The notes under the pieces: model-generated
What the model saw: only the letters and a program-made list of their open reading frames with translations
The model's database searches: none
What the model was told of the DNA's origin: nothing
Shown here: one piece after another, positions 43,839-55,794 of the stretch
How the letters are laid out: each line of letters starts with the position of its first letter
Numbering within the stretch: the stretch's first letter is position 1
Made by a program: the position numbers and the translations under genes
Assembly (NCBI RefSeq): GCF_040219335.1
Contig: NZ_JAVJSQ010000007.1
Location: forward strand, 62,001 to 126,000
DNA length: 64,000 bases
From: Gimesia sp.
GTDB lineage: Bacteria; Planctomycetota; Planctomycetia; Planctomycetales; Planctomycetaceae
Direction of reading: 5' to 3'

Positions 43839-44551
43839 CCGCTGAGAAAAAACGCAGCCTGCTGTCAGATGAAGAACTTGAATGGTCGGACGTGGCTGCG
43901 AACTGCCGCATGAATCGCGAACGCGAAATCACCGGGACTAACAGCTACACCGCCGACCTGAAACTCAATCCCCTCGAATTTCTGACCGAGAAAATCCAGG
44001 CAGGACAGACCGTGCGCTGGCTGGATCTCTGCTGTGGATCGGGACGGGCCTTGATTCAGGCTTACGAACATTTCCAACAAGCGGGACTGTCCGCACAGGT
44101 TCAGATTCGAGGCATCGATCTGGTAAATCTGTTTCTGCCTGCCCCTGACGCTGGCGATACACTTCGTCTGCAGACCGCCTCCCTGCATGACTGGGATACG
44201 GACGAACGGTTCGATCTGATTACCTGCGTGCATGGTCTGCACTATGTGGGCGATAAACTTTCGCTACTGGCCCGCGCCGCGGGCTGGCTCTCTTCCGACG
44301 GCCAGTTCCTGGCTCATCTGGATCTGGAGAATCTGCAAACCGTCGAAGGGACATGGACGACTGCAGACAAACGGGAATTTCTGAGGCGACGATTCTTTCA
44401 ATACCATTCGCGGACACACCTGCTGACCTGCACGGGACAGCAAGACGTCCGCTTTCCCTGTCGTTACGCGGGTGCTTCGGATCAGGCGGGGCCGAATTTT
44501 ACCGGGCAACCGGCAGTCAACTCGTTCTACCAGCTGCGGGAAACGGTTTAA
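43835..44551 (+). CDS. class I SAM-dependent methyltransferase
   Basis: A 238-residue Rossmann-type methyltransferase. Motif I is WLDLCCGSGRALIQA (about 66-80), an acidic end of strand 2 follows at RGIDL, and strand 4 is FDLITCVHGLHYVGD. No substrate-specific C-terminal signature is recognised. The start overlaps the TPR gene stop by four bases (ATGA). The gene ends against the reverse-strand phosphatase remnant, whose stop codon shares bases 44549-44550 with this gene's stop. Confidence 0.85.
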   Translation: MTAEKKRSLLSDEELEWSDVAANCRMNREREITGTNSYTADLKLNPLEFLTEKIQAGQTVRWLDLCCGSGRALIQAYEHFQQAGLSAQVQIRGIDLVNLFLPAPDAGDTLRLQTASLHDWDTDERFDLITCVHGLHYVGDKLSLLARAAGWLSSDGQFLAHLDLENLQTVEGTWTTADKREFLRRRFFQYHSRTHLLTCTGQQDVRFPCRYAGASDQAGPNFTGQPAVNSFYQLRETV

Positions 44552-44640
44552 TCTTCCACGAGTGTGTTCATGTCGAGCAGCAACTCCAGCGCGGTCAGAC
44601 AACCGTGAATATCACCAATGGCCAGCAGACGATCTACCAC
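44548..44640 (-). pseudogene. N-terminal remnant of a GDIHG metallophosphatase
   Basis: Reading leftward from a GTG at 44640, this frame encodes VDRLLAIGDIHGCLTALELL, then 10 more residues ending LVED and a TAA at 44548-44550. The GDIHG block and its flanks match the first metal-binding motif of Ser/Thr phosphatases (PP2A/bis(5'-nucleosyl) tetraphosphatase type). The GDxxDR and GNHD motifs needed for activity are missing because the frame stops at once and a convergent methyltransferase gene follows. It was probably truncated by deletion. Its start lies 10 bases after the stop of the 222-residue membrane-protein gene, so it could still be translated. Confidence 0.65.
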
Positions 44641-44649
44641 AGTCTTGTA

Positions 44650-45318
44650 TCACCTTTCTGATTGGTCTCTGTCTGGCTTTAGCGACTCACAGACCGTGGG
44701 CTCCAGTGAGCCGAATCCGTGATCGCCGCCATGCTCATGAATGAATTCGTCTTCTACAAAATCCACGAAATCGACCTCATCCCCGGCGGTCTTGATCTCC
44801 AGAATGGTTCTGGTATGCGGGGCCCGCAGCAGCGTGACTTCGCTGCGCGGAAAGGCATCTTCTTCAAAATCATCCAGTCGTTGATCAAACAGATAGAACC
44901 ACTCACCTTCGCGGGTATGGATTAAAAACCCGGCCGCCGGCTCGTAAGACGTGACCGACCAGTACTGGTAGATATTGCGGATCGTTATCTGTTCCGCCAC
45001 GCTATCCGCGGCATCCCGCTGGCGACTTTCCTGCCTGGTTTTCCAGCGCTGCAGGTCCTCGGCACGGAGTTTGAGCAGATACCAGAATCCCCCCGCCAGG
45101 CCCAGGCCGGCGGCACCGAGCAGTACCAGCCGATTTAGTAGCAAATTCTCCTCCCCGGTCCAGCGTTCGCACACATAGAGCAGAGGCAGAACCGGAACCA
45201 TGCAGAGCATCGGCAAGCCGATCAGCAGGACGACGATAAAGATGAAATATCCCTCAAAGCGATATTTTTCTTCCGGTCGTGGCGGATACGTATGCGGGAT
45301 GCGGACGATTTCAATCAT
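44650..45318 (-). CDS. small membrane protein, last intact gene of the DUF1559 array operon
   Basis: A 222-residue protein with two membrane segments (about 22-50 and 62-82) and a cytoplasmic-looking C-terminal domain of about 130 residues rich in aromatic and charged residues (WYLLKLRAEDLQRWKTRQ, then YQYWSVTSYEPAAGFLIHTR, LYLFDQRLDDFEEDAFPR). It lacks the DUF1559 passenger. The start overlaps the stop of the preceding array gene by eight bases, so it belongs to the same operon. I recognise no family. Confidence 0.7.
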   Translation of the reverse strand: MIEIVRIPHTYPPRPEEKYRFEGYFIFIVVLLIGLPMLCMVPVLPLLYVCERWTGEENLLLNRLVLLGAAGLGLAGGFWYLLKLRAEDLQRWKTRQESRQRDAADSVAEQITIRNIYQYWSVTSYEPAAGFLIHTREGEWFYLFDQRLDDFEEDAFPRSEVTLLRAPHTRTILEIKTAGDEVDFVDFVEDEFIHEHGGDHGFGSLEPTVCESLKPDRDQSER

Positions 45319-46438
45319 GTCTGTTCTGCCTGCCTGTCACCGGTTTTCTCTGATCCCAGTCATCAGAGTTTACCTCTCCTCCTGCAGGGGTACTCAGTGC
45401 TTTCAGGATAGTGGGATCAATGTTCTCAGACACATGGCGGACGCTTCCATCTGAGAGCAGAACCTGAGCCCCTTGTCCATAGGGACCTCCGAATGTGTCT
45501 GGTCCCTGATTGATACCGCGAGCAGGGTCCCTGAAATTTAAGGGATCTCCCCAGGCACGAATGCCTGCTTTGACTTCCCCTCCCAATATCGTGTAGGAAG
45601 TGCCATCGGTGATATCACGGAGTCTCAATGAAGAATTAATACCCAGCAGTCGCTGATTCGCCGCATAATGTGCGGGTTTATATCCGGGGCGATCCGACTG
45701 ATAATCTTCCAGGGGATCGAAATCATAATCCAGGCCCGGATTATGGAAGACATAAAGGCGCGTCTCGTAAGGTTGGCGGTTCTCCTCTGATGTCCAGGGC
45801 TGAGTAAAATCGATCTGCTGATACAGTTCCTGTTGATCCAGGTAAGGCAGTAACCACGCCGCCCAGCCATGCTGGGGTTGTCCCGTCGAGTCAATGATCC
45901 CCCCACTGGGAAATTGATTGTGATCGTCATGGTAGTTGTGCATTGCCAGGCCAATTTCTTTCAAAATATTCCGCGACGTGCTACGACGCATACCGGTCAT
46001 GCCTCCCTGATACACCAGCCTGTCTTCCCCGGTCGCCATCCACCAGAGTTGATGCGAAACGCCGATCAGACAGATGCCACTGGTTACCAGTACCAGCAGC
46101 AGTGCCACCAGTGAGAACGACCAGCGCAGTTGCCAGTCGCGGTTCTCCTCTGCGGCCGCGGTTTCCTGTTTCCCACGATAGACACCCCGGCAGGCAAAGT
46201 GCAGTCCGGTTACGAAGAGGGCCAGACAGAACAGAAACCATAACACGCCGGAAGCCGAAACCGTCAGCGTGGGCAGGGTTCGTTTCAGATAGGGAATCCA
46301 GCCGGTTCCCAGCTGAAACAGTGTCTGAACGAGAAAGGCCATTCCCGCGCAAGAGACCAGAAAAAAGAACGTCACCAGTGCCATGGCAGACAGGGAGGCG
46401 CGCTGTACTTTGGTAGAAGGTTCTGATTCAGTGCTCAC
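45311..46438 (-). CDS. membrane-anchored DUF1559 protein, array member 6
   Basis: A 375-residue protein. Three membrane helices (about 17-44, 60-84 and 108-132) replace the pilin helix. The passenger starts at RRSTSRNILKEIGLAMHNYH, the same helix junction as canonical DUF1559 proteins, and continues through SGGIIDSTGQPQHGWAAWLL, LLGINSSLRLRDITDGTSYT and QVLLSDGSVRHVSENIDP. Tyrosine replaces the histidine of the H-X9-DG signature. With an N-in topology the passenger would face outward. The start overlaps the stop of member 5 by 11 bases. Confidence 0.85.
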   Translation of the reverse strand: MSTESEPSTKVQRASLSAMALVTFFFLVSCAGMAFLVQTLFQLGTGWIPYLKRTLPTLTVSASGVLWFLFCLALFVTGLHFACRGVYRGKQETAAAEENRDWQLRWSFSLVALLLVLVTSGICLIGVSHQLWWMATGEDRLVYQGGMTGMRRSTSRNILKEIGLAMHNYHDDHNQFPSGGIIDSTGQPQHGWAAWLLPYLDQQELYQQIDFTQPWTSEENRQPYETRLYVFHNPGLDYDFDPLEDYQSDRPGYKPAHYAANQRLLGINSSLRLRDITDGTSYTILGGEVKAGIRAWGDPLNFRDPARGINQGPDTFGGPYGQGAQVLLSDGSVRHVSENIDPTILKALSTPAGGEVNSDDWDQRKPVTGRQNRHD

Positions 46439-47615
46439 GCTGCCCTCCTTTTGTGTTTCCTGACGGAGATGGATTTTCCTCCAGCACTTCCCGACCGTCA
46501 GGTGTGCTCAGCGCCTTGAGCACAGCCGGATCGATGTCTTCAGAAAGGAAGCGAACACTGCCATCCGCGATTAAGGCATTGGCTCCGGGTCCAAAGGGCC
46601 CTGCGAACGTTTCAGGTCCCTGGTTGATGCCCCGCGCGGGGTCGCGGATATTCAGGGGATTGCCCCAGGCTCGAATGCCCGCTTTGACTTCCCCTCCCAT
46701 GATCGTCTGTGATGTGCCATCCTTGATGTCGCGGATTCTCAGACCGCCATTGAGGCCCAGCAGTCGTTGATTGGCCGCGTAATGCGCCGGCCTGTAACCA
46801 GAGCGGTCAGTCCGTTCATTGTCACCCGGTTCGAAGTCGTAGCTCAAGCTCGGATTCTCCAATACACGAAGCGGCTTTTCGAAAACCTGACGATTCACCT
46901 CGGCCGTCCAGGACTGATTGAAGTCGATCTGCTGGAACAGATCCGGCTGGTCCAGGTAGGGTAAAATCCGCGCCGCCCAGCCGTGGTGTGGATTGCCGGT
47001 TGCATCCACGGTTGCCCCTATCGGTAACTGGTGATGCTCGTCATGATAGTTGTGCATTCCCAGGCCGATCTGCTTGAGACGGTTAATTGAAACCCGACGT
47101 CTCTGACCTTCGATGAAAGCAACCGGATAAAACAGGGAGAGGGGACGCTCTCTGAGTAGAGCCCTCTGATCTCCAGCAGCCATCCACCACAGCTGATGCG
47201 AGATTCCAATCAGACTGATGCCACTGGTGATCAGAACCAGTAACAGGCTGACCAGGGTCGCCGTCCAGCGGAGTCTCCACCGCGAAACACCCGTCGTTGA
47301 CTCGGTCCGCTTCACAGTGGTCAGCGTTCCTCGATACAGTTTTCTACCCACCAGATGGACTCCGATCAGGAACAGACTCAGGGTGCAGAGAAACCAGAGT
47401 GTCCCTGAAATTGAAAGGGTCAACGTGGGCACGACGCGCCAGAGATAACTGATCCAGCCGATCATCAGTGCGTACACTGTCTGCGGCAGAAAGAACAGTC
47501 CCAGGCCGAGAGTCAGACCGAGCAACATAAGGCCGCCTGCCAGCGCGACCCAGAACCGCTGCAGTGTAGTCAACGGTGGTGTTTCCGTTTTGCTGGTGGC
47601 GCTGTTTTCCTGCAT
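46428..47615 (-). CDS. membrane-anchored DUF1559 protein, array member 5
   Basis: A 395-residue protein. The N-terminal tail is rich in Ser/Thr, followed by three membrane helices (about 22-50, 63-87 and 113-137) and a DUF1559 passenger from RRVSINRLKQIGLGMHNYHD. Further family blocks are GWAARILPYLDQPDLFQQID, LLGLNGGLRIRDIKDGTSQT and NALIADGSVRFLSEDIDPA. The signature histidine is phenylalanine here. It begins three bases after the stop of member 4, and its last 11 bases overlap member 6, so translation is coupled along the array. Confidence 0.85.
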   Translation of the reverse strand: MQENSATSKTETPPLTTLQRFWVALAGGLMLLGLTLGLGLFFLPQTVYALMIGWISYLWRVVPTLTLSISGTLWFLCTLSLFLIGVHLVGRKLYRGTLTTVKRTESTTGVSRWRLRWTATLVSLLLVLITSGISLIGISHQLWWMAAGDQRALLRERPLSLFYPVAFIEGQRRRVSINRLKQIGLGMHNYHDEHHQLPIGATVDATGNPHHGWAARILPYLDQPDLFQQIDFNQSWTAEVNRQVFEKPLRVLENPSLSYDFEPGDNERTDRSGYRPAHYAANQRLLGLNGGLRIRDIKDGTSQTIMGGEVKAGIRAWGNPLNIRDPARGINQGPETFAGPFGPGANALIADGSVRFLSEDIDPAVLKALSTPDGREVLEENPSPSGNTKGGQREH

Positions 47616-47618
47616 CGC

Positions 47619-48749
47619 TTAATACTCCCCCACTGGTTCGCCGCCGTCGGGTGTTGCCAGTGCTTTGAGGATTGCCGGATCGATGTTTTCATTGATGAAG
47701 CGGACGGAACCATCTCCCAGTAGAAAATAGGCGCCGCCTGTCGAAGGGCTGCCGAATCCTTGAGGGGCTGCGTTGATACCACGCATGGGATCGCGGAAGT
47801 TGGTCGGATCACCCCAGGCTTTGATTTGGGAATTCACCTCGCCCGCCAGCAGGGTATTCGAAGTGCCGTCTCTGATCTCCTGAATTTTCGGTGCCGAATT
47901 CACATTGAATACATGGGAATTCGCGGCATAATGTGCCGGCTTGAGGCGGTGTTCGGCGTCTCTTCTGAGATCGCCCGGCTGATAATCATAGTTTAGCTTC
48001 GGGTTTTGCAGGACAGGTAACCTGTTCTCGAAATGCGGACGATTTTCCGGTGCTGTCCAGGGTTGCTCGAAATCGATCTGGTTATACAGATAGGCCTGGT
48101 CCAGGTAGGGCAGCAGTTGTGTGGTCCAGCTGTGCTGCGGCTGACCGGCACGATCAAAAATTCCGCCGGGAGGGAAACGGGACATCATGTTGTGATAATT
48201 GTGCATCGCGAGGCCCAGTTGCTTGAGATGGTGACGGGTTTCAATGCGACGGTATCTGCCCCTTCCTTTGTGAACCAGCAGCAGTCTCTCGTTTGTGGTC
48301 ACCAGTTCCTGAACCGTGTGCTTCAGTCCCAGTAGTGCAAAGCCGAAACCCGTGAGACTCAGAACGAGTACCAGGAGTGAGGCCGTCCAGCGTTTCTCCC
48401 ATTTTGTTGTCACGGCAGTCTGTACATGATCAACTCGGGTAGACTGGAACCGGTGGTAGAGACCGTTCAGCAAAAGATGGGCGACGAGCGCCACCGCCAG
48501 CAGCAGACCACAACACCAGAGGAACTGCGGCACCGTAAAGGTCCAGAGGGAGAGGAACCGCCAGAGGTAAACAGCCCAGCCCGTCAGGAACAGGAACCCG
48601 AGGAGCAGTGGAAACATGATTTGAAAAAATCCCAGCACGGCAATCAGGATCAGTAACAGACCCAACGTTTCCAGCCCCGTCAGTCGATAGCCCCAGGTGA
48701 TCTCCGTCTCTGAAACATCCCGCCCGGTTTTGTGGAAGTCATCTGTCAT
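47619..48749 (-). CDS. membrane-anchored DUF1559 protein, array member 4
   Basis: About 376 residues from the ATG at 48749. An upstream in-frame ATG at 48830 reads inside member 3 and is not used. Layout: three membrane helices (about 23-54, 65-88 and 109-137) and a DUF1559 passenger beginning RRIETRHHLKQLGLAMHNYH. Blocks include FPPGGIFDRAGQPQHSWTTQ, NVNSAPKIQEIRDGTSNTLL and FLLGDGSVRFINENIDPAIL. Serine replaces the signature histidine. Its start overlaps member 3's stop by 11 bases. The 3' end is nearly identical in DNA to that of member 3. Confidence 0.85.
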   Translation of the reverse strand: MTDDFHKTGRDVSETEITWGYRLTGLETLGLLLILIAVLGFFQIMFPLLLGFLFLTGWAVYLWRFLSLWTFTVPQFLWCCGLLLAVALVAHLLLNGLYHRFQSTRVDHVQTAVTTKWEKRWTASLLVLVLSLTGFGFALLGLKHTVQELVTTNERLLLVHKGRGRYRRIETRHHLKQLGLAMHNYHNMMSRFPPGGIFDRAGQPQHSWTTQLLPYLDQAYLYNQIDFEQPWTAPENRPHFENRLPVLQNPKLNYDYQPGDLRRDAEHRLKPAHYAANSHVFNVNSAPKIQEIRDGTSNTLLAGEVNSQIKAWGDPTNFRDPMRGINAAPQGFGSPSTGGAYFLLGDGSVRFINENIDPAILKALATPDGGEPVGEY

Positions 48750-49869
48750 GGTGCCACACTCCCTCACCCACCGGTTCGCCGCCGTTGGGTGTTGCCAGTG
48801 CTTTGAGGATGGCGGGATCGATATTTTCATTGATGAAACGGACGGAGCCGTCGACCATCAGAAACTGGGCACCGCCCTGAAAGGGACCGCCAAAGCCATG
48901 CGGGTCAACGTTGATGCCCCGCGTTGGATCGCGGAAGTTGGTTGGATCGCCCCAGGCCTTGAACTGCGCGTTCACTTCTCCTGCAAGCAGCGTATTCGAA
49001 CTGCCGTCACTGATCTCCTGAAAACCCGGCGCCGCATTCGCATTCATGACATGCGAATTGGCCGCGTATTGCGCGGGCTGGTAGCCTGCGGAAGTCGGTT
49101 CGCCCTCGGCTCCCCCGCGGTAGGTCTCCCGCAGACCGGGATTCAGGCAGTAGTACAAGGGCTGCTGAAAGGGGAGACGATTAGCGTCGGCTGACCAGGG
49201 CTGGCCGAGGTCGATCTGACGATAGAGCCGCTCTTCCCCCAGGAAGGGGAGCAGGTGTGTGAGCCAGCTGTGCTGTGGCTGACCGGTTTGATCGAAGGTG
49301 CCCCCTGCCGGAAAGTGTCCATAGACATCCTGGTGACTGTGCAGCGCCAGCCCGAGTTCTTCGAGTTGATCGCCGGACTGCTCACGCTTCCAGCCGCCTT
49401 GACTGTCAAACGCGAATGAGATTCGTTCCTGACTGGTGACCAGCGCCCAGACCTGTTGTGTCAGCTCGGTCACTGCAAAGCTGCTGCCCAACAGCAGCAG
49501 CAACAACGCCAGGATGGTACAGGTCCACCGTGGTTGCCAGACTGCGGATGAATTCTCTGACTGAAATCGCAGGCGATAGCCACGTTTTAAAAACAGATGC
49601 AAGACGGCGCCCATGAAAATGAGAATGACGACACACCAGACGATCTGCGTGGGAGAACGACTCAAGCTGTTCCCCACGCGCTGCAGATACAGATACCAGC
49701 CGGCCAGCAGGTGATACCCGAGACGAAACGGATAGACGACTCCCAACAGCAGCAGGAAGAAACAGTAAACCAGCAGCGCAAACAGGATCATCAGGCAGCC
49801 AGCCACGATCAGCAGTTTGAAGCCCAGGCCGCGGGCAGGACGGGGATCGGTTTTCGTTTCGTTCGACAT
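48739..49869 (-). CDS. membrane-anchored DUF1559 protein, array member 3
   Basis: A 376-residue protein with three membrane helices (about 17-52, 64-86 and 107-132; the first is unusually long) and a DUF1559 passenger. It shares the blocks GGTFDQTGQPQHSWLTHLLP, NANAAPGFQEISDGSSNTLL and FLMVDGSVRFINENIDPAIL with its neighbours. Phenylalanine replaces the signature histidine. The helix junction reads SGDQLEELGLALHSHQDVYG, a more divergent form of the NxLKQxGLAxHNYHD pattern. It starts four bases after the stop of member 2. Confidence 0.85.
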   Translation of the reverse strand: MSNETKTDPRPARGLGFKLLIVAGCLMILFALLVYCFFLLLLGVVYPFRLGYHLLAGWYLYLQRVGNSLSRSPTQIVWCVVILIFMGAVLHLFLKRGYRLRFQSENSSAVWQPRWTCTILALLLLLLGSSFAVTELTQQVWALVTSQERISFAFDSQGGWKREQSGDQLEELGLALHSHQDVYGHFPAGGTFDQTGQPQHSWLTHLLPFLGEERLYRQIDLGQPWSADANRLPFQQPLYYCLNPGLRETYRGGAEGEPTSAGYQPAQYAANSHVMNANAAPGFQEISDGSSNTLLAGEVNAQFKAWGDPTNFRDPTRGINVDPHGFGGPFQGGAQFLMVDGSVRFINENIDPAILKALATPNGGEPVGEGVWHHDR

Positions 49870-49873
49870 GGCT

Positions 49874-51007
49874 TTACCAGTCCTCCTGAAAACGGCTCAT
49901 GTCTTCGCCGCCGTTGGGTGTCGCGAGTGCTTTAAGCACGGCCGGGTCGATGTTTTCATTAATGAAGCGGGCCGAACCATCTCCCAGCAGGCAATTGGCA
50001 CCGCCGATGAAAGGACCACCAAAGCCGCGCGGGTGAGCATTGATTCCCAGTGCCGGATCGCGGAAGTTGGTCGGATCGCCCCAGGCTTTGAGCTGTGAAT
50101 TGACTTCGCCCGCCAGCAGTGTGTTGGAAAGACCGTCCTTGATCTCTTTGAAGTTCAGCCCCGAGTTCACATTCAGGACACGTGCGTTCGCCGCGTATCC
50201 GGCTGGCTGGTATCCGTGGGGGAGCTCCGGTTCTTTCCTGTTCAAGCGGGGACCCGGAATCTGATAAACATCCAGTTCTGTAGTAAAGATGTCACGATTG
50301 TCCGCAGCGGTCCAGGGTTGATGAAAATCGACCTTGTTATACAGGGGTGCCTGGTCAACAAAAGGCAGGATCTGCGTCATCCAGCTGTGTTGTGGTTGTC
50401 CGGTCTGATTGAAAATTCCGCCGGGAGGCAGGCGATCATGGACGTCGTGGTAGTTATGCAGCGCCAGGCCGATCTGTTTGAGATTGTTTTTGGAAGCACT
50501 GCGTCTGGCTGCATTATAAGAATTATAGGCTGTCACAAGCCGCTCATCGCCGGTGGTCATCGACCAGACCTGCCTGCCGATTTCGGCAACGGCCACTCCG
50601 CTCCCGGCCAGGATCAACAGAAACAGTAGCACCGAACAGGTCCACTGTTTAGGCCAGGAGTTCAGGGGGGCGACGTCCGGCTCGGCCGACTGCAGTCGTT
50701 GTGACCAGTGATATCCCTGTTTCAGCAGCAGATGCAGGGCCACGACGATCAACGCCAGAAAGAGAATCAACCACACCAGTTGTGAGACGACCAGGGTCTG
50801 CGTGCTCAACACGCGTTTGAGATAGGCCACCCAGCCGAACAGGAGATGATAGCCGATCACGAAAGGCAACATAACTCCCAGGCAGGCCATGAATCCCGCC
50901 AGCGTCAAGACGCTGATCCCCCGCGCAATCCAGTCTCCCGATTTCTGTGGAGTCGACTGCTCTGAGTCCGTGGAGCCGGGTCCTGTGGTTTCCGGGTCGG
51001 TTGTCAT
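49874..51007 (-). CDS. membrane-anchored DUF1559 protein, array member 2
   Basis: About 377 residues from the ATG at 51007, the first after member 1's stop; an in-frame ATG at 51052 lies within member 1. A GGAGGTAA site overlaps that stop. The protein has three membrane helices (about 34-60, 69-96 and 117-141) and a canonical-looking DUF1559 passenger from SKNNLKQIGLALHNYHDVHD, with RLPPGGIFNQTGQPQHSWMT, NVNSGLNFKEIKDGLSNTLL and CLLGDGSARFINENIDPAVL. Phenylalanine replaces the signature histidine. Confidence 0.85.
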   Translation of the reverse strand: MTTDPETTGPGSTDSEQSTPQKSGDWIARGISVLTLAGFMACLGVMLPFVIGYHLLFGWVAYLKRVLSTQTLVVSQLVWLILFLALIVVALHLLLKQGYHWSQRLQSAEPDVAPLNSWPKQWTCSVLLFLLILAGSGVAVAEIGRQVWSMTTGDERLVTAYNSYNAARRSASKNNLKQIGLALHNYHDVHDRLPPGGIFNQTGQPQHSWMTQILPFVDQAPLYNKVDFHQPWTAADNRDIFTTELDVYQIPGPRLNRKEPELPHGYQPAGYAANARVLNVNSGLNFKEIKDGLSNTLLAGEVNSQLKAWGDPTNFRDPALGINAHPRGFGGPFIGGANCLLGDGSARFINENIDPAVLKALATPNGGEDMSRFQEDW

Positions 51008-51011
51008 CGCA

Positions 51012-52091
51012 TTACCTCCCCTCCAGGAACGCGCTGACATCTTCGCCCCCATGGGGCGTCGCGAGTGCTTTCAATATTTCGGGGTCGATATTTTCATTGA
51101 TGAATTTCCCGCTGCCATCCAGGAACAGCATGTTAGCTCCGCCTCTCAGCCTTCGCGGTGCTCCGAATCCCAGCGGGTGCCTGTTGATTCCTAATGCGGG
51201 ATCGCGTGCATTCAGCGGTTCTCCCCAGGCAGGCAGCCGGGTGCTGATCTCACCGAGCATAATTGTATTCGCAAGTCCATCCGGGACGCTTTGATCATTG
51301 AGGACCTGATCTGGCGCGGCAATGTGACTGTTCAGCGCGAGATGTGAGAGTCCAAACCCGTTGCTGTCGACCCGCTGTTCGTCCGGGGTTTCACTCCTGA
51401 GAAAATTCGGGATCGAAGTCTGGAAATGCTCTGCATTCCGTTGCGAGTTCCAGGGGGCACTCAGATCGATCTTTTCGAACAAAGCGGTCGAGTCCAGGTA
51501 AGGCAACAGTTGTGTTTCCCAGCTGTGTAACGGTTTACCCGTCGAACTGATGATTACTGTGGGATGCCGATCTTGATTCTCTGCAGAATATCGCTCTGCT
51601 GATTTTCCAAGTCTGCGTTGATTCAAGAGAAATGTGTACTGGTTCCAGAATTCTTTTGTGCTTGTTAAGAAGGATCCTTTGTCATCCTTCATGATTTCCC
51701 GTGTCCGATGGGCCATACCGACCACTGACAGTCCTCCCGTGAAGCTGACGATCAGCAAGATCAGACAGACAGCCGTCCTGCGCAACCGCCAGGGACCTGC
51801 CGGGGAATTTTCAGTTTGTGAGGATCCCAGTTTTGTTGCCTGCACCCCCAGTACCTGAATTACAACTGCCAACAGAATCAGGAGCAGACACGCCGTCACG
51901 ATTCCCGGCACTGAAACGGTCATTTGCGGCTGGACACGTAGCAAAAAGGGATACCAGCCCAAGAGAAGGTAGATCAGAAATCGGAAGATAAAATACATCC
52001 CACCCAGGAAAACCAGAGTCAGGAAGATCATGAAAACAACACCGATCTCAGTCTTTGTTGGTCCTTTCGATTTCTTTGTTTCATTTTCCAT
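51012..52091 (-). CDS. membrane-anchored DUF1559 protein, array member 1
   Basis: About 359 residues from the ATG at 52091 (MENETKKSKG); another ATG nine bases earlier is possible. The protein has three membrane helices (about 15-42, 52-77 and 100-123). The passenger is the most divergent of the six: the helix junction lacks the NYHD motif, but HSWETQLLPYLDSTALFEKI, GLANTIMLGEISTRLPAWGE and MLFLDGSGKFINENIDPEIL are intact. Leucine replaces the signature histidine. The start overlaps the stop of the preceding membrane-protein gene by 11 bases. Confidence 0.8.
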   Translation of the reverse strand: MENETKKSKGPTKTEIGVVFMIFLTLVFLGGMYFIFRFLIYLLLGWYPFLLRVQPQMTVSVPGIVTACLLLILLAVVIQVLGVQATKLGSSQTENSPAGPWRLRRTAVCLILLIVSFTGGLSVVGMAHRTREIMKDDKGSFLTSTKEFWNQYTFLLNQRRLGKSAERYSAENQDRHPTVIISSTGKPLHSWETQLLPYLDSTALFEKIDLSAPWNSQRNAEHFQTSIPNFLRSETPDEQRVDSNGFGLSHLALNSHIAAPDQVLNDQSVPDGLANTIMLGEISTRLPAWGEPLNARDPALGINRHPLGFGAPRRLRGGANMLFLDGSGKFINENIDPEILKALATPHGGEDVSAFLEGR

Positions 52092-52785
52092 TGAGCACAT
52101 CCTGAGCTTTGGTGGTGGGAAGCACCTTAATGGCGCCGTCGGTGAACAGGATCAGCTGCTGGTCGTCGCCGTAGATGGCCTGCTCGAAGGCGAGAGGTTC
52201 TGAAGGGTACGCTTGCTTGTCGCCCGCGACATAGCCGTAGCGGGCCTGCAGCGGGCCGGGCTGCAGCCAGAACTCTTCGGCGAAGGTGGTCTCGTCTGCT
52301 TTGCCGGGGAATTTGCCCTGGTGGGTGGCGACATGCATGAAGAGTGCCGACCGCAGTTCACCCAGTTTGCTGCGTCGCTCGTCGAGTGTGGTCCCTGCTG
52401 CCAGGGAGGAATCGTCCGGTTGTTTGTCTTCCACGAGTCGATAGGTGCGTCCGCTCTTTTCCCAGGCACCGGGGGTCAGCAGTTCGCGTGCGCCCGAGAT
52501 CATCGTCAACACAAACAGGAACATCAGCCCCCAGAGCACCGAGACTCCGAGCGCGCCTTTATACGAGATGCGGGGCAGTTTCGGGAAATCTTTCGCCAGC
52601 AGATTCCAGCAGAGCTTGAGGATCAGGGCGCTCAGCAGCAGCACCATCAGGAAGAAGGAGATGGACTGCAGACGCAGCTGGGCGATGTCGGTCAGGTCGA
52701 GTGAGACGCTGGGCATCCCGGCCTGGACGGGTCCGGTCCAGAAAAAACTGACACAGCCGGCGAGCAGAACAGTGCGAACCATCAT
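52081..52785 (-). CDS. membrane protein, first gene of the DUF1559 array operon
   Basis: About 234 residues from the ATG at 52785, which follows GGAG by nine bases; a TTG nine bases earlier is in frame. It has a signal peptide (VQAGM), then two membrane helices (about 42-62 and 82-100), and an outward-facing domain of about 125 residues ending LILFTDGAIKVLPTTKAQDV. The DG element and the preceding KLGELRSALFMHVATHQGKF helix resemble a stripped-down DUF1559 passenger, but I would not call the family. Being first, it may set expression for the whole operon. Confidence 0.7.
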   Translation of the reverse strand: MMVRTVLLAGCVSFFWTGPVQAGMPSVSLDLTDIAQLRLQSISFFLMVLLLSALILKLCWNLLAKDFPKLPRISYKGALGVSVLWGLMFLFVLTMISGARELLTPGAWEKSGRTYRLVEDKQPDDSSLAAGTTLDERRSKLGELRSALFMHVATHQGKFPGKADETTFAEEFWLQPGPLQARYGYVAGDKQAYPSEPLAFEQAIYGDDQQLILFTDGAIKVLPTTKAQDVLNGK

Positions 52786-52930
52786 GGAAATCAACTCCGC
52801 AGAAGTGCAATGAGAAAGGGTCTATTTCCATCATACATAAGTCCACATGATACGCGAGTCTATTCTTTTTGTTGTCGGGCAATTTCGCGGGGGATCGCGA
52901 TTTCGGGCTTGCCAGACGCGGGACCGCCTG

Positions 52931-52959
52931 TTGACACTCCCCGGCGCGCGGACTAGCAT
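52931..52959 (+). promoter_or_regulatory. sigma70-type promoter of the VCBS-TPR gene pair
   Basis: A perfect TTGACA, a 17-base spacer and TAGCAT lie about 80 bases upstream of the VCBS gene start at 53042, in the 256-base space between the divergent operons. It is the best promoter match in the window. Confidence 0.65.
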
Positions 52960-53041
52960 TGATCCATGATTGCGACTGCAGCGCTGTGCAGTCGTGACAT
53001 TAGACTCATATTATTCCTTCCGCGTTGACCTGCCCGAGCTT

Positions 53042-54415
53042 ATGTCTGCAGCCGAGAACAGCCCACCCCCCGAGACGAACCCGGAGCCGAACATTCCGGA
53101 CCGCACTGGTTTGACGCTGCTGATGCTGGTGGCCGTCATTCTGCTGCCGCTGGCGACCTGGTTTGCCTTGCCTCTGGTTCCACCGCTGGGGAGTCTGCCC
53201 GAGCTCTACACGGGAGGCACTTCGTATCCGGCGTCCCCCCTACACTTTGATCGCAGCGGGAGTCTGCAGACTGCGAGTGCGGAGGGCTCATCAAAAGAGC
53301 TGCCTCTGATTACCAACGTGCAGATTCTTGATTTTGACGGCGATGGAAAAAACGAGATTCTCGCCTGTGATGCCGGCAATAACCGAGTGCTGCTGATCTC
53401 GATAGATAATGAGGGAGTCCAGACGACCCGCACGCTGATTGAGGATGTGGCTGCGCCCGCGCATGCGACTGCCGTGGATATTGACGCCGACGGCGATCTG
53501 GATCTGGTGATTTCGGTGCTGGGGAACATTCAGCCCGATGATGGAGTCGTGGGCAAAGTCGAGCTGTTTGAACAGACGAAAAACGGTTTTGTCAGACATG
53601 TGATTCTGGATGACGTCCGCCGCGTCGCCGATGTGCAGCCTGGTGACTTCGACCAGGATGGCGACCTCGACCTCGCGGTGGCTGTCTTCGGCTACAACCG
53701 CGGTGAAGTCCTCTGGCTGGAGAACCAGGGCAACTTTCAGTTTGTGGATCACCTGCTGCATCGGGCGCCGGGTACGATTCATGTTCCCGTGGCGGACTTT
53801 GACGGGGACGGCGATCTGGATATCGCGACGATCGTCTCGCAGGAAGAAGAAGAGCTCGTGGCCTTTGAAAATCTGGGGCAGGGAAAATTCAAAACCCGGT
53901 CCCTGTGGATGACGCCTAATATGGACCTCGGCAGTGCGGGTCTGATTCACGCCGACCTCGACCAGGATGGCGATCAGGATCTGATTCTCCCCGCGGGCGA
54001 CAACCTCGAAGACTTCGATGCGTACCCGCAGCCTTACCACGGATGTTACTGGTTTGAGAACACGGGCGACTGGAAGTTTAAGCAGCACCGCATCTCGAAT
54101 CTGGGAGGTACGTATGCCGGGGATGTGACCGACCTGGACGGCGACGGCGATCTGGATGTCGTGCTGGTGAGCATGACGAACGACTGGTACACGCCGGGGA
54201 ATGCGAGCCTGGTCTGGCTGGAAAATGATGGTCAGCAGAACTTCAAAAGCTGGCAGATCGACAGTGAGCCGATCCATCTCGTCACGGTTGCGACGGGTGA
54301 CCTGAACCAGGACGGCCGGCCCGACATCGCCGCTGGTGCGTTGAATATGCGGAAACCCTTTGATCGCATCGGACAGGTTTCGGCCTGGCTGCAACGTGCG
54401 GAAGGGGGTCGCTGA
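53042..54415 (+). CDS. FG-GAP/VCBS-repeat protein with signal anchor
   Basis: About 457 residues from the ATG at 53042; an in-frame TTG at 52970 is unlikely. It has a proline-rich tail and one membrane helix (about 24-46), followed by a seven-bladed-type repeat region with seven calcium loops: DFDGDGKNE, DIDADGDLD, DFDQDGDLD, DFDGDGDLD, DLDQDGDQD, DLDGDGDLD and DLNQDGRPD. VCBS/FG-GAP proteins are extracellular adhesion or ligand-binding modules. It overlaps the TPR gene by one base (TGATG), so both are made together. They diverge from the DUF1559 array. Confidence 0.85.
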   Translation: MSAAENSPPPETNPEPNIPDRTGLTLLMLVAVILLPLATWFALPLVPPLGSLPELYTGGTSYPASPLHFDRSGSLQTASAEGSSKELPLITNVQILDFDGDGKNEILACDAGNNRVLLISIDNEGVQTTRTLIEDVAAPAHATAVDIDADGDLDLVISVLGNIQPDDGVVGKVELFEQTKNGFVRHVILDDVRRVADVQPGDFDQDGDLDLAVAVFGYNRGEVLWLENQGNFQFVDHLLHRAPGTIHVPVADFDGDGDLDIATIVSQEEEELVAFENLGQGKFKTRSLWMTPNMDLGSAGLIHADLDQDGDQDLILPAGDNLEDFDAYPQPYHGCYWFENTGDWKFKQHRISNLGGTYAGDVTDLDGDGDLDVVLVSMTNDWYTPGNASLVWLENDGQQNFKSWQIDSEPIHLVTVATGDLNQDGRPDIAAGALNMRKPFDRIGQVSAWLQRAEGGR

Positions 54416-55794
54416 TGTTATTTCGCGCGTTGATGCTGTTATTGATCGTTGAAGGCACCTGGTGCGGATATCTGTTCTACCAGCGGGCTGCACGACCGGA
54501 ACCGGTATTGCCCGAAGCGCGGCTGATGGACACTTTGTTTGTAGAGGATGTCGAACCGCTGGTCACGCAGGTTCAGAAAGACAATGCGCCTTACGACTGG
54601 ATGCAGTTGGGTGAGGCACTGCTGGGCCAGGGATATTACAGTCATGCGGCACTCTGTTTTGAACAGGTTGCCCGGCTGATGCCCGCGAGTCGACTGGCTG
54701 AGAGCCGCATCGCATATTGCCTGGAACGGACCGGGCGCACCTCCGAGAGCACCGACAAGTATCTGAGTCTGCTGGAGACCGCAGAAGAAGGACGCGAAGG
54801 AGACCGCGAGCGGATGCAGATCCGCTATGAAATCGGTCGCAATTATCTGCGCGAGGAACAGACCGACAAAGCGGAAGCCATGTTCCGTGAGAATCTTGGT
54901 TTCCTGCCGGCCCGCTATCAACTGGCCAAACTGTTGATCCGCTCGGACCGCATTGAGGAAGCACTGCCTTTGATTCAGGAATCGTTACAGCGGGTTCCCC
55001 AGTCACTCAAATTCCGGGAACTGGAACTGCAGGCATATCGCAGACAAGGTGACATGGACGCGGTCAACCGGAGTGCCCTTGCCCTGGCGCGGGCTCAGCA
55101 CTCGGTCCCGTTGCATCCGGGTTCCGATTTCATCGAGCCCTATCGAATGCAGTATGGCATCGATCGGCGGGTGGAAGAGTTCAATCAGCGGATTTCGGGA
55201 GGCACACTGGATGAGCTGGCGGGCGAACTGGAGCAGCTGATCGCGCTGCTCGATAACCGCCCCACGACCCATTATCCGATCTTCCTGATGCGGCTGGCGG
55301 AAGTGAATCTGCAGCGAAAACGTCCCGAGCAGATCGGCAAGACGATTCAGCAGTTGAACGATTTGCAGATCCACAACGCCGAGACCCTGCTCTACCAGGC
55401 GCAGTCTCTGGGGATGCAGGACGAGTGGGATCAGGCTGCTGAGCTGGCTCAGCGGGCGGCGCTGCTCACGAAAGATCCGGCCCTGCATCAGCAGATTGCA
55501 GTCATCCTGGAACAGGCGGGTCAGGTGGAGCCAAGTACGGCGGCTCGCGCACGGGCCTTGCGGCTCAAGGGGATGCTGGCTTACCGCGAGAATCAGCTCG
55601 CAGAGGCGGAAGCCCTGCTCGATCAGTCACTCTCCCTGAACCCCGCAGATGCCCAGGCATGGTATGACCGAGGGCTGATTCGGCTCGCTCTGGGGAACCT
55701 GGAAGCCGCCCGGGCTGATTTTCAGGCCTGCCTGGAACGGGAGCCCCGACACGGTCGTGCGCAGCGTCAACTGACGCCGGCCAAGGACAAATAA
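54415..55794 (+). CDS. signal-anchored TPR protein
   Basis: A 459-residue protein with an N-terminal anchor (about 1-20) and many TPR-like repeats, including LGEALLGQGYYSHAALCFEQ, KAEAMFRENLGFLPARYQLA, ALPLIQESLQRVPQSLKFRE and AEALLDQSLSLNPADAQAWY. It is co-translated with the VCBS protein through the TGATG junction. It probably assembles with that protein at the cell envelope; this is inferred from coupling only. Confidence 0.82.
   Translation: MLFRALMLLLIVEGTWCGYLFYQRAARPEPVLPEARLMDTLFVEDVEPLVTQVQKDNAPYDWMQLGEALLGQGYYSHAALCFEQVARLMPASRLAESRIAYCLERTGRTSESTDKYLSLLETAEEGREGDRERMQIRYEIGRNYLREEQTDKAEAMFRENLGFLPARYQLAKLLIRSDRIEEALPLIQESLQRVPQSLKFRELELQAYRRQGDMDAVNRSALALARAQHSVPLHPGSDFIEPYRMQYGIDRRVEEFNQRISGGTLDELAGELEQLIALLDNRPTTHYPIFLMRLAEVNLQRKRPEQIGKTIQQLNDLQIHNAETLLYQAQSLGMQDEWDQAAELAQRAALLTKDPALHQQIAVILEQAGQVEPSTAARARALRLKGMLAYRENQLAEAEALLDQSLSLNPADAQAWYDRGLIRLALGNLEAARADFQACLEREPRHGRAQRQLTPAKDK

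Follow-up and report, generated by a model that had tools for sequence, protein, structure and literature searches.

The window, a stretch of 64,000 nucleotides (nt) of Gimesia sp. (assembly GCF_040219335.1, contig NZ_JAVJSQ010000007.1, C7:62001-126000; host genome 7.93 Mb), carries on its minus strand six adjoining genes (A to F, 45311-52091), each coding for three predicted membrane helices followed by a DUF1559 passenger, and preceded by a partner gene, Y. Y and genes with this three-helix anchor constitute a near-obligate two-gene membrane module found across the phylum. The array is best read as an amplified form of that module, in which a fixed periplasmic display complex would carry exchangeable recognition subunits (probability about 0.5). 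"D" alone denotes any gene with the three-helix anchor; "gene D" is the fourth gene of the array.

The array and its partner gene

The six open reading frames lie head to tail, with overlaps of up to 11 bases or gaps of 3-4 bases between neighbours: A, 51012-52091; B, 49874-51007; C, 48739-49869; gene D, 47619-48749; E, 46428-47615; F, 45311-46438. Their products are likely of 359, 377, 376, 376, 395, and 375 amino acids (aa), respectively (starts of A, B, and D taken from translations; GTG start in F). PF07596 (DUF1559) was matched by all six (E 2e-16 to 4e-38; 61-132.5 bits against a Pfam gathering cut-off of 23.3), and against the H-X9-DG model (TIGR04294, cut-off 19 bits) five scored 19.1-30.5 bits and F 13. 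By hydropathy, every one of the six has three peaks ahead of the passenger. The original prediction, made from the letters of the window, of six adjoining DUF1559 paralogues of 359-395 residues with three N-terminal helices, overlapping or within 11 bases of each other, is thereby borne out. The N-terminus of type IV pilins and pseudopilins (G/A, then E at +5, in a single helix continuous with the domain) is not that of the array genes, which have three spans each. The six can be aligned end to end, B to F being 30-33% identical to A; nucleotide identity among them is 48-63%. For B a structure was predicted (predicted local distance difference test score, pLDDT, 86.5).

Y (52081-52785, minus strand) is the first gene of the operon and overlaps A by 11 nt. 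Its product has a putative cleavable signal peptide, two membrane helices, and conserved AGMPS and SGAREL-TPGAW segments; the C-terminal domain (residues about 128-229) is pilin-like in the predicted structure. Y had no Pfam match. A protein search gave 2122 homologues from 7993 candidates scored, with no Pfam domain on any of the 120 listed, and the closest named relatives of the Y and D proteins are from Gimesia. Within the host genome the only match to Y is the one in the window. As to a shared origin of Y and D, comparison of their profiles (hhalign) gave 34% and 14%. PHROGs returned one weak match for Y (E 0.005), and none of eight proteins matched a PADLOC anti-phage defence model at E 0.01. 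A minus-strand search of 44400-53100, including the region upstream of Y, gave no match to a sigma-70-like promoter; from the gene overlaps we infer that Y and the six array genes are read as a single transcript.

The Y-D pair and its passengers across the phylum

Two separate scans were made, with Y as query and with the anchor alone as query. Among 297 genomes of the host's class, Y was matched in 58, the anchor in 61, both in 57, and neither in 235 (Fisher p 4e-55, relatedness being ignored and both draws taken as the same 297 genomes). The sole genome with Y only has a stop inside the match; in the four with the anchor only, the matches are weak and partial. Among 392 genomes of the phylum, Y was matched in 31, strongly (E up to 1e-45) in 21, and all 21 are within the list of 22 genomes with the anchor, the 22nd of which has a partial match containing a stop. 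The planctomycete search for three-helix DUF1559 genes, proposed with the original prediction, returned a module present across the phylum. At all 66 loci holding both Y and D the two adjoin on the same strand. Gene orders are YD (39 loci), YDD (16), YDDD (1), YDDDDD (2), YDDDDDD (3), YDYD (2), DDY (1), and apparent DY (2; L225 and L230, so read merely through upstream extension of an open frame). D starts at -11 to +10 relative to the Y stop in 65 of the 66, most commonly at -4; use of the nearest in-frame start favours short gaps, but 65/66 is still beyond chance expectation.

One D is present at 41 loci, two at 19, and three or more at 6. The six-gene array was considered as the basic unit and rejected, since 41 of the 66 loci have a single D; large arrays are exceptional. 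Outside the 66 loci stand L006, L007, L011-L014, L181, L188, and L189. L006 is an exception to the pairing, with a full three-helix DUF1559 D (L006:9962-11029) and no Y in about 10 kb on either side, stop-to-stop search included; L007 starts inside its own D at a contig edge. The Y matches of G471 (internal stop) and G508 (fragmented) were not retrieved, the tree program omitted L255 from the Y tree, and D motif, passenger, and marker counts exclude L001-L005, L009, and L010 (duplicates of genome loci). The Y-D-Y'-D' order occurs at L227:5437-8616 and L245:2862-5656, the second Y being short (124 and 147 aa). Apparent remnants, of Y at L181:9332-9715 (G244, 127 aa) and of the anchor at G286:C68:23913-24161 (partial, with a stop), suggest decay of the module in these two genomes.

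Outside Gimesia (53 loci, neighbours within 5 kb) the largest neighbour cluster is TPR-like, on mixed strands, at 9 loci; permease-like and ABC-ATPase-like clusters occur at 2 loci each (names assigned by eye). In this clustering, no group of pilus or secretion genes was conspicuous next to the Y-D loci. As no neighbour is widespread there, the pair looks stand-alone. The same lack of a widespread neighbour family, and the two loci each of transporter-like clusters, make it very improbable that D is the solute-binding part of a transporter. That idea has on its side the Pfam name SBP_bac_10 and the NCBI name "PulG-like putative transporter", and was repeated in 2009 in the available portion of PMC2754498; sequence and fold searches of the PDB gave no match to a binding protein, and no clear neighbour of D.

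At the five loci known outside the host's class (L172, L174, L175, L178, L179) the passenger is short and not DUF1559. These short D proteins (236-269 aa) keep all three helices, but some 110 other residues stand where DUF1559 would be; profile comparison of their anchors with those of DUF1559-bearing D gave 99.9% (E 8e-31, 137 columns) and ends where the passenger begins. Within the class, DUF1559 is carried by one or more D at 60 of the 61 loci; in L226, also of the class, the sole D frame stops after 159 aa close to the contig end. DUF1559 matches number 0, 0, 1, 2, and 3 in the five short-passenger genomes and 54-116 in the four class genomes checked, and the module likely acquired DUF1559 where the family abounded. 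The deep forks of the Y tree, on which the direction of this change depends, have weak support, and its five short-D rows are not united in a single branch when the other rows are included. Derivation of D from a pilin by addition of two helices was rejected, as the short-passenger D have the entire anchor; for the IP29b genes starting GFTLKEL or GLTSIEV, a direct pilin origin may apply.

In a tree with the DUF1559 domains of the host genome only as outgroup, 101 of 102 D passengers group together (support 0.90) and one, from L258, falls outside. The group adjoins the host's short-helix and GYF_2 forms and is separate from the pilin-type genes of that genome. The KNN site holds a cysteine in 0/102 D passengers versus 91/102 pilin-type proteins, and the literal H-x9-DG pattern in 10/102 versus 96/102; the median number of cysteines per passenger is 0 in D and 6 in the pilin type. 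Nine of 114 D frames, that of gene A among them, have a loose prepilin-like motif close to helix 1. The strict motif is correctly placed in two of the 114, both IP29b; a third match (L171) sits behind helix 1 and was excluded as a prepilin site. One three-helix D (L005:8794-9861, identical to L229:4265-5332) opens with MRRGFTLKEL, so that a strict prepilin-like motif precedes helix 1. Of the earlier proposal that the array had swapped the pilin helix for a permanent anchor, the permanence is supported by the rarity of the loose motif, but the anchor is the signature of the Y-D module and not a novelty of the array.

Against this background the passengers could serve as a docking or priming platform, a fixed DUF1559 packing against pilin-borne DUF1559 so as to nucleate or anchor filaments, with six copies for different pilin classes. 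The domain is the same as in the 102 pilin-type genes of the host genome, and DUF1559 passengers are confined to the class rich in such pilins. We nevertheless consider this unlikely: the 235 class genomes with neither Y nor anchor would be without such a platform, G004 and G013 have 116 and 54 DUF1559 matches but no module, and the module also occurs where DUF1559 is almost absent.

In the host genome, 133 PF07596 matches were resolved into 128 open frames; 14 control genomes had none. Three hydropathy peaks within 180 residues before the domain are found in exactly the six array genes; the other frames have one peak (113), two (4), or none (5). A first pilin pattern caught 99 of the 128 frames and missed variants; when widened, it divided the 122 non-array frames into 102 pilin-type and 20 others. 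The latter include GYF_2-helix-DUF1559, M56-DUF1559, and weak zinc-ribbon forms (Pfam), and short-helix and lipoprotein-like forms (by eye); some still look pilin-like, and 2 of the 20, which are without the pilin motif, have the KNN-site cysteine. GYF_2 with one helix and DUF1559 occurs in three proteins (L110:7782-9663, C12; L115:8396-9376, C37; GYF_2 E 1e-7 to 1e-9), the two from C12 belonging to a three-gene DUF1559 cluster. A 960-aa frame (L093:2694-5573, C19) combines a BlaR1-type M56 peptidase with a C-terminal DUF1559, which suggests DUF1559 as a sensor part there. At L113:6269-9842 (C6), a cluster of DUF1559 genes has lipoprotein-like and zinc-ribbon-helix starts, and one protein has two DUF1559 copies.

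Differences between relatives and exposure of the passengers

Outside exceptional stretches, 200-base bins of the host genome (G000) are 92-98% identical to G006 and 92-100% to G007. One such stretch, in A (51150-52100, ends approximate, minus strand), is 53-61% identical in nucleotides to G006 and G007, the next bins being at 94-95%. Another, coding for the F passenger (45400-46150, ends approximate, minus strand), is at 64-76% against three relatives (64-75% against G006 and G007), with the next bins at 92-98%. One bin in E drops to 86% (G000 versus G006). Synonymous divergence, 0.07-0.24 in the other genes, reaches 0.6-0.7 in F, and in A it is 1.8 or saturated; mere fast evolution of A was rejected on these values. 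In F the anchor is 93-96% and the passenger 62-63% identical to the orthologues of the three relatives, and here one passenger alone was exchanged behind a kept anchor. A recent copy of E as its source was rejected, since the identity of the F passenger to E-type passengers (63-64%) does not exceed that to its orthologues.

Genes B to F have same-position orthologues in G005-G007, with two departures: in G005 a single gene stands in place of A and B, and in G007 there is a clean gap at gene D. The last 90 nt of gene C of G007 resemble gene D (96.7 versus 88.9%), and with longer tails the match is to C; this is the trace of a crossover in the shared 3' end by which one gene was lost. Gene A, at position 1, is the most exchanged, being replaced between relatives. 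In six pairs with Y 97-99% identical, the first D is identical at 40, 44, 40, 98, 46, and 45%; G002 compared with G011 and G009 has Y at 91 and 88% and first D at 52 and 50%, and G011 compared with G009 has Y at 88% and first D at 92%. The D tree groups the position-1 genes of the 13 genomes together (100/99) and sets the remaining Gimesia copies in another branch (97/97). IP29b gained its six copies by an expansion of its own (98/96), and the six-copy state of D arose at least twice.

The ratio of nonsynonymous to synonymous divergence (dN/dS) is 0.17-0.48 for D genes (for A computable against G005 only); Y has 0.08-0.12, and a methyltransferase gene in the flank 0.19-0.36. Values below 0.5 in every computable comparison make these look like working genes. 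They also speak against neutral turnover, by which extra copies of a dispensable membrane pair would come and go by recombination, their diversity having no role. The higher dN/dS of D than of Y would accord with such turnover, as would the patchy presence of Y (58/297) and the lack of any module match in G004 and G013. We think it improbable, somewhat more so than the docking platform, because B to E are 90-96% conserved between relatives, the exchange being concentrated in A and the F passenger, and because the Y-D pairing is kept across the phylum.

Among the 74 D frames having exactly three segments, 69 have a loop 2 richer in K/R than their loop 1, which predicts a cytoplasmic N-terminus and a passenger outside the cytoplasm, as the original prediction of outward-facing domains had it. 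Three alpha-helical spans indicate the inner membrane, where Y and D proteins are both predicted to reside; exposure of the D passenger would then be periplasmic. The earlier suggestion of an antigen-like family, taken as a set of proteins displayed on the cell's exterior and diversified against attack from outside, is accommodated by the replacement at position 1, the passenger exchange, and the charge-based outward topology. The inner-membrane location, the conservation of B to E, and the dN/dS values count against it, and it is given little credence.

At the 3' end of the array lies X222 (44650-45318, minus strand), an accessory membrane gene that overlaps F. It was rejected as part of the module, since it is present at only 4 of 12 other Gimesia loci, at one of them with 41% identity. 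Of the non-DUF1559 membrane genes noted originally at each end, both are without a Pfam match, but their roles differ, Y being the partner with a predicted pilin-like domain. Among 13 Gimesia loci a divergent FG-GAP/TPR gene pair (52970-55794 in the window, divergent from the array) lies beside Y in 8, and a large TPR gene at the other side in 11; G003 has neither in the stretch examined. G004 and G013 keep the FG-GAP/TPR pair, with no Y or D adjoining and no match to either elsewhere in the genome.

A possible display platform and its relation to known systems

In the preferred reading, a display complex with exchangeable subunits, Y (one copy) and D (usually one, six here), encoded by overlapping genes, would most probably come together in the cytoplasmic membrane, Y by way of two helices and D of three, and both would present a pilin-type domain to the periplasm. 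As Y and D are usually without a prepilin site, no processing into a filament is expected, and the domain would be displayed on a fixed platform instead. D is the part that is exchanged: recombination between related bacteria replaces either the gene as a whole or just its passenger, the anchor staying in place, and copies are lost, and presumably also gained, by crossovers in the conserved 3' ends, with Y constant. Exchange of D beside a constant Y suggests that the passengers recognise something that changes; candidates are a filament subunit, a substrate, a rival, or a phage. The array may then be a set of alternative or mixed D subunits on one Y platform. The heteromeric membrane complex of the original prediction is plausible in this sense. 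The data show the pairing, the coupling of the genes, their architecture, and the exchange; topology and folds are predicted, and a physical Y-D complex and a recognition function are what we infer. A bolder generalisation, about as doubtful as the docking platform, would be a phylum-wide two-component display, in which an invariant Y presents exchangeable D domains that left filament assembly and D arrays are recombining recognition repertoires, for example for discrimination of kin, rivals, or phages.

DUF1559 is among the largest and still unexplained planctomycete families, for which the array offers a concrete handle: a membrane-fixed DUF1559 that lacks the pilin cysteine and goes with a single partner gene is far simpler to test (one or two deletions) than dozens of redundant pilins. 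The module also documents a pilin-type domain moving between chassis at a defined junction. In the portions available, 68 DUF1559 paralogues are reported for Planctopirus limnophila (PMC10632474), and for T. immobilis 91 proteins with both N_methyl and SBP_bac_10, along with a few SBP_bac_10 proteins having other N-termini (PMC8567305). Three-helix DUF1559 arrays or Y are not described in the available portions of PMC2754498, PMC10632474, PMC4807772, PMC5352709, and PMC8567305, and searches in an open-licence collection (subscription papers being mostly outside its coverage) brought up nothing further; the Y-D module appears to be undescribed.

With pilin-type DUF1559 proteins (PF07596, SBP_bac_10; often annotated H-X9-DG, TIGR04294) the array shares the PF07596 passenger, a similar domain start (AARRSxxKNNLKQIGLAxHNYHD in many), and DG near the C-terminus. 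Unlike these, D has a three-helix anchor and no pilin helix, usually no prepilin site, no KNN-site cysteine, and Y adjoining. Y itself differs from type IV minor pilins (PilE, PilV) and pseudopilins: in place of their N-terminal pilin helix it has two spans and an N-terminus of the secretory type. The host's other non-pilin DUF1559 proteins differ from D, none having three helices before the domain and no Y being present elsewhere in the genome, but they likewise carry DUF1559 on another N-terminus, and their GYF_2 and short-helix forms are the nearest to the D passengers.
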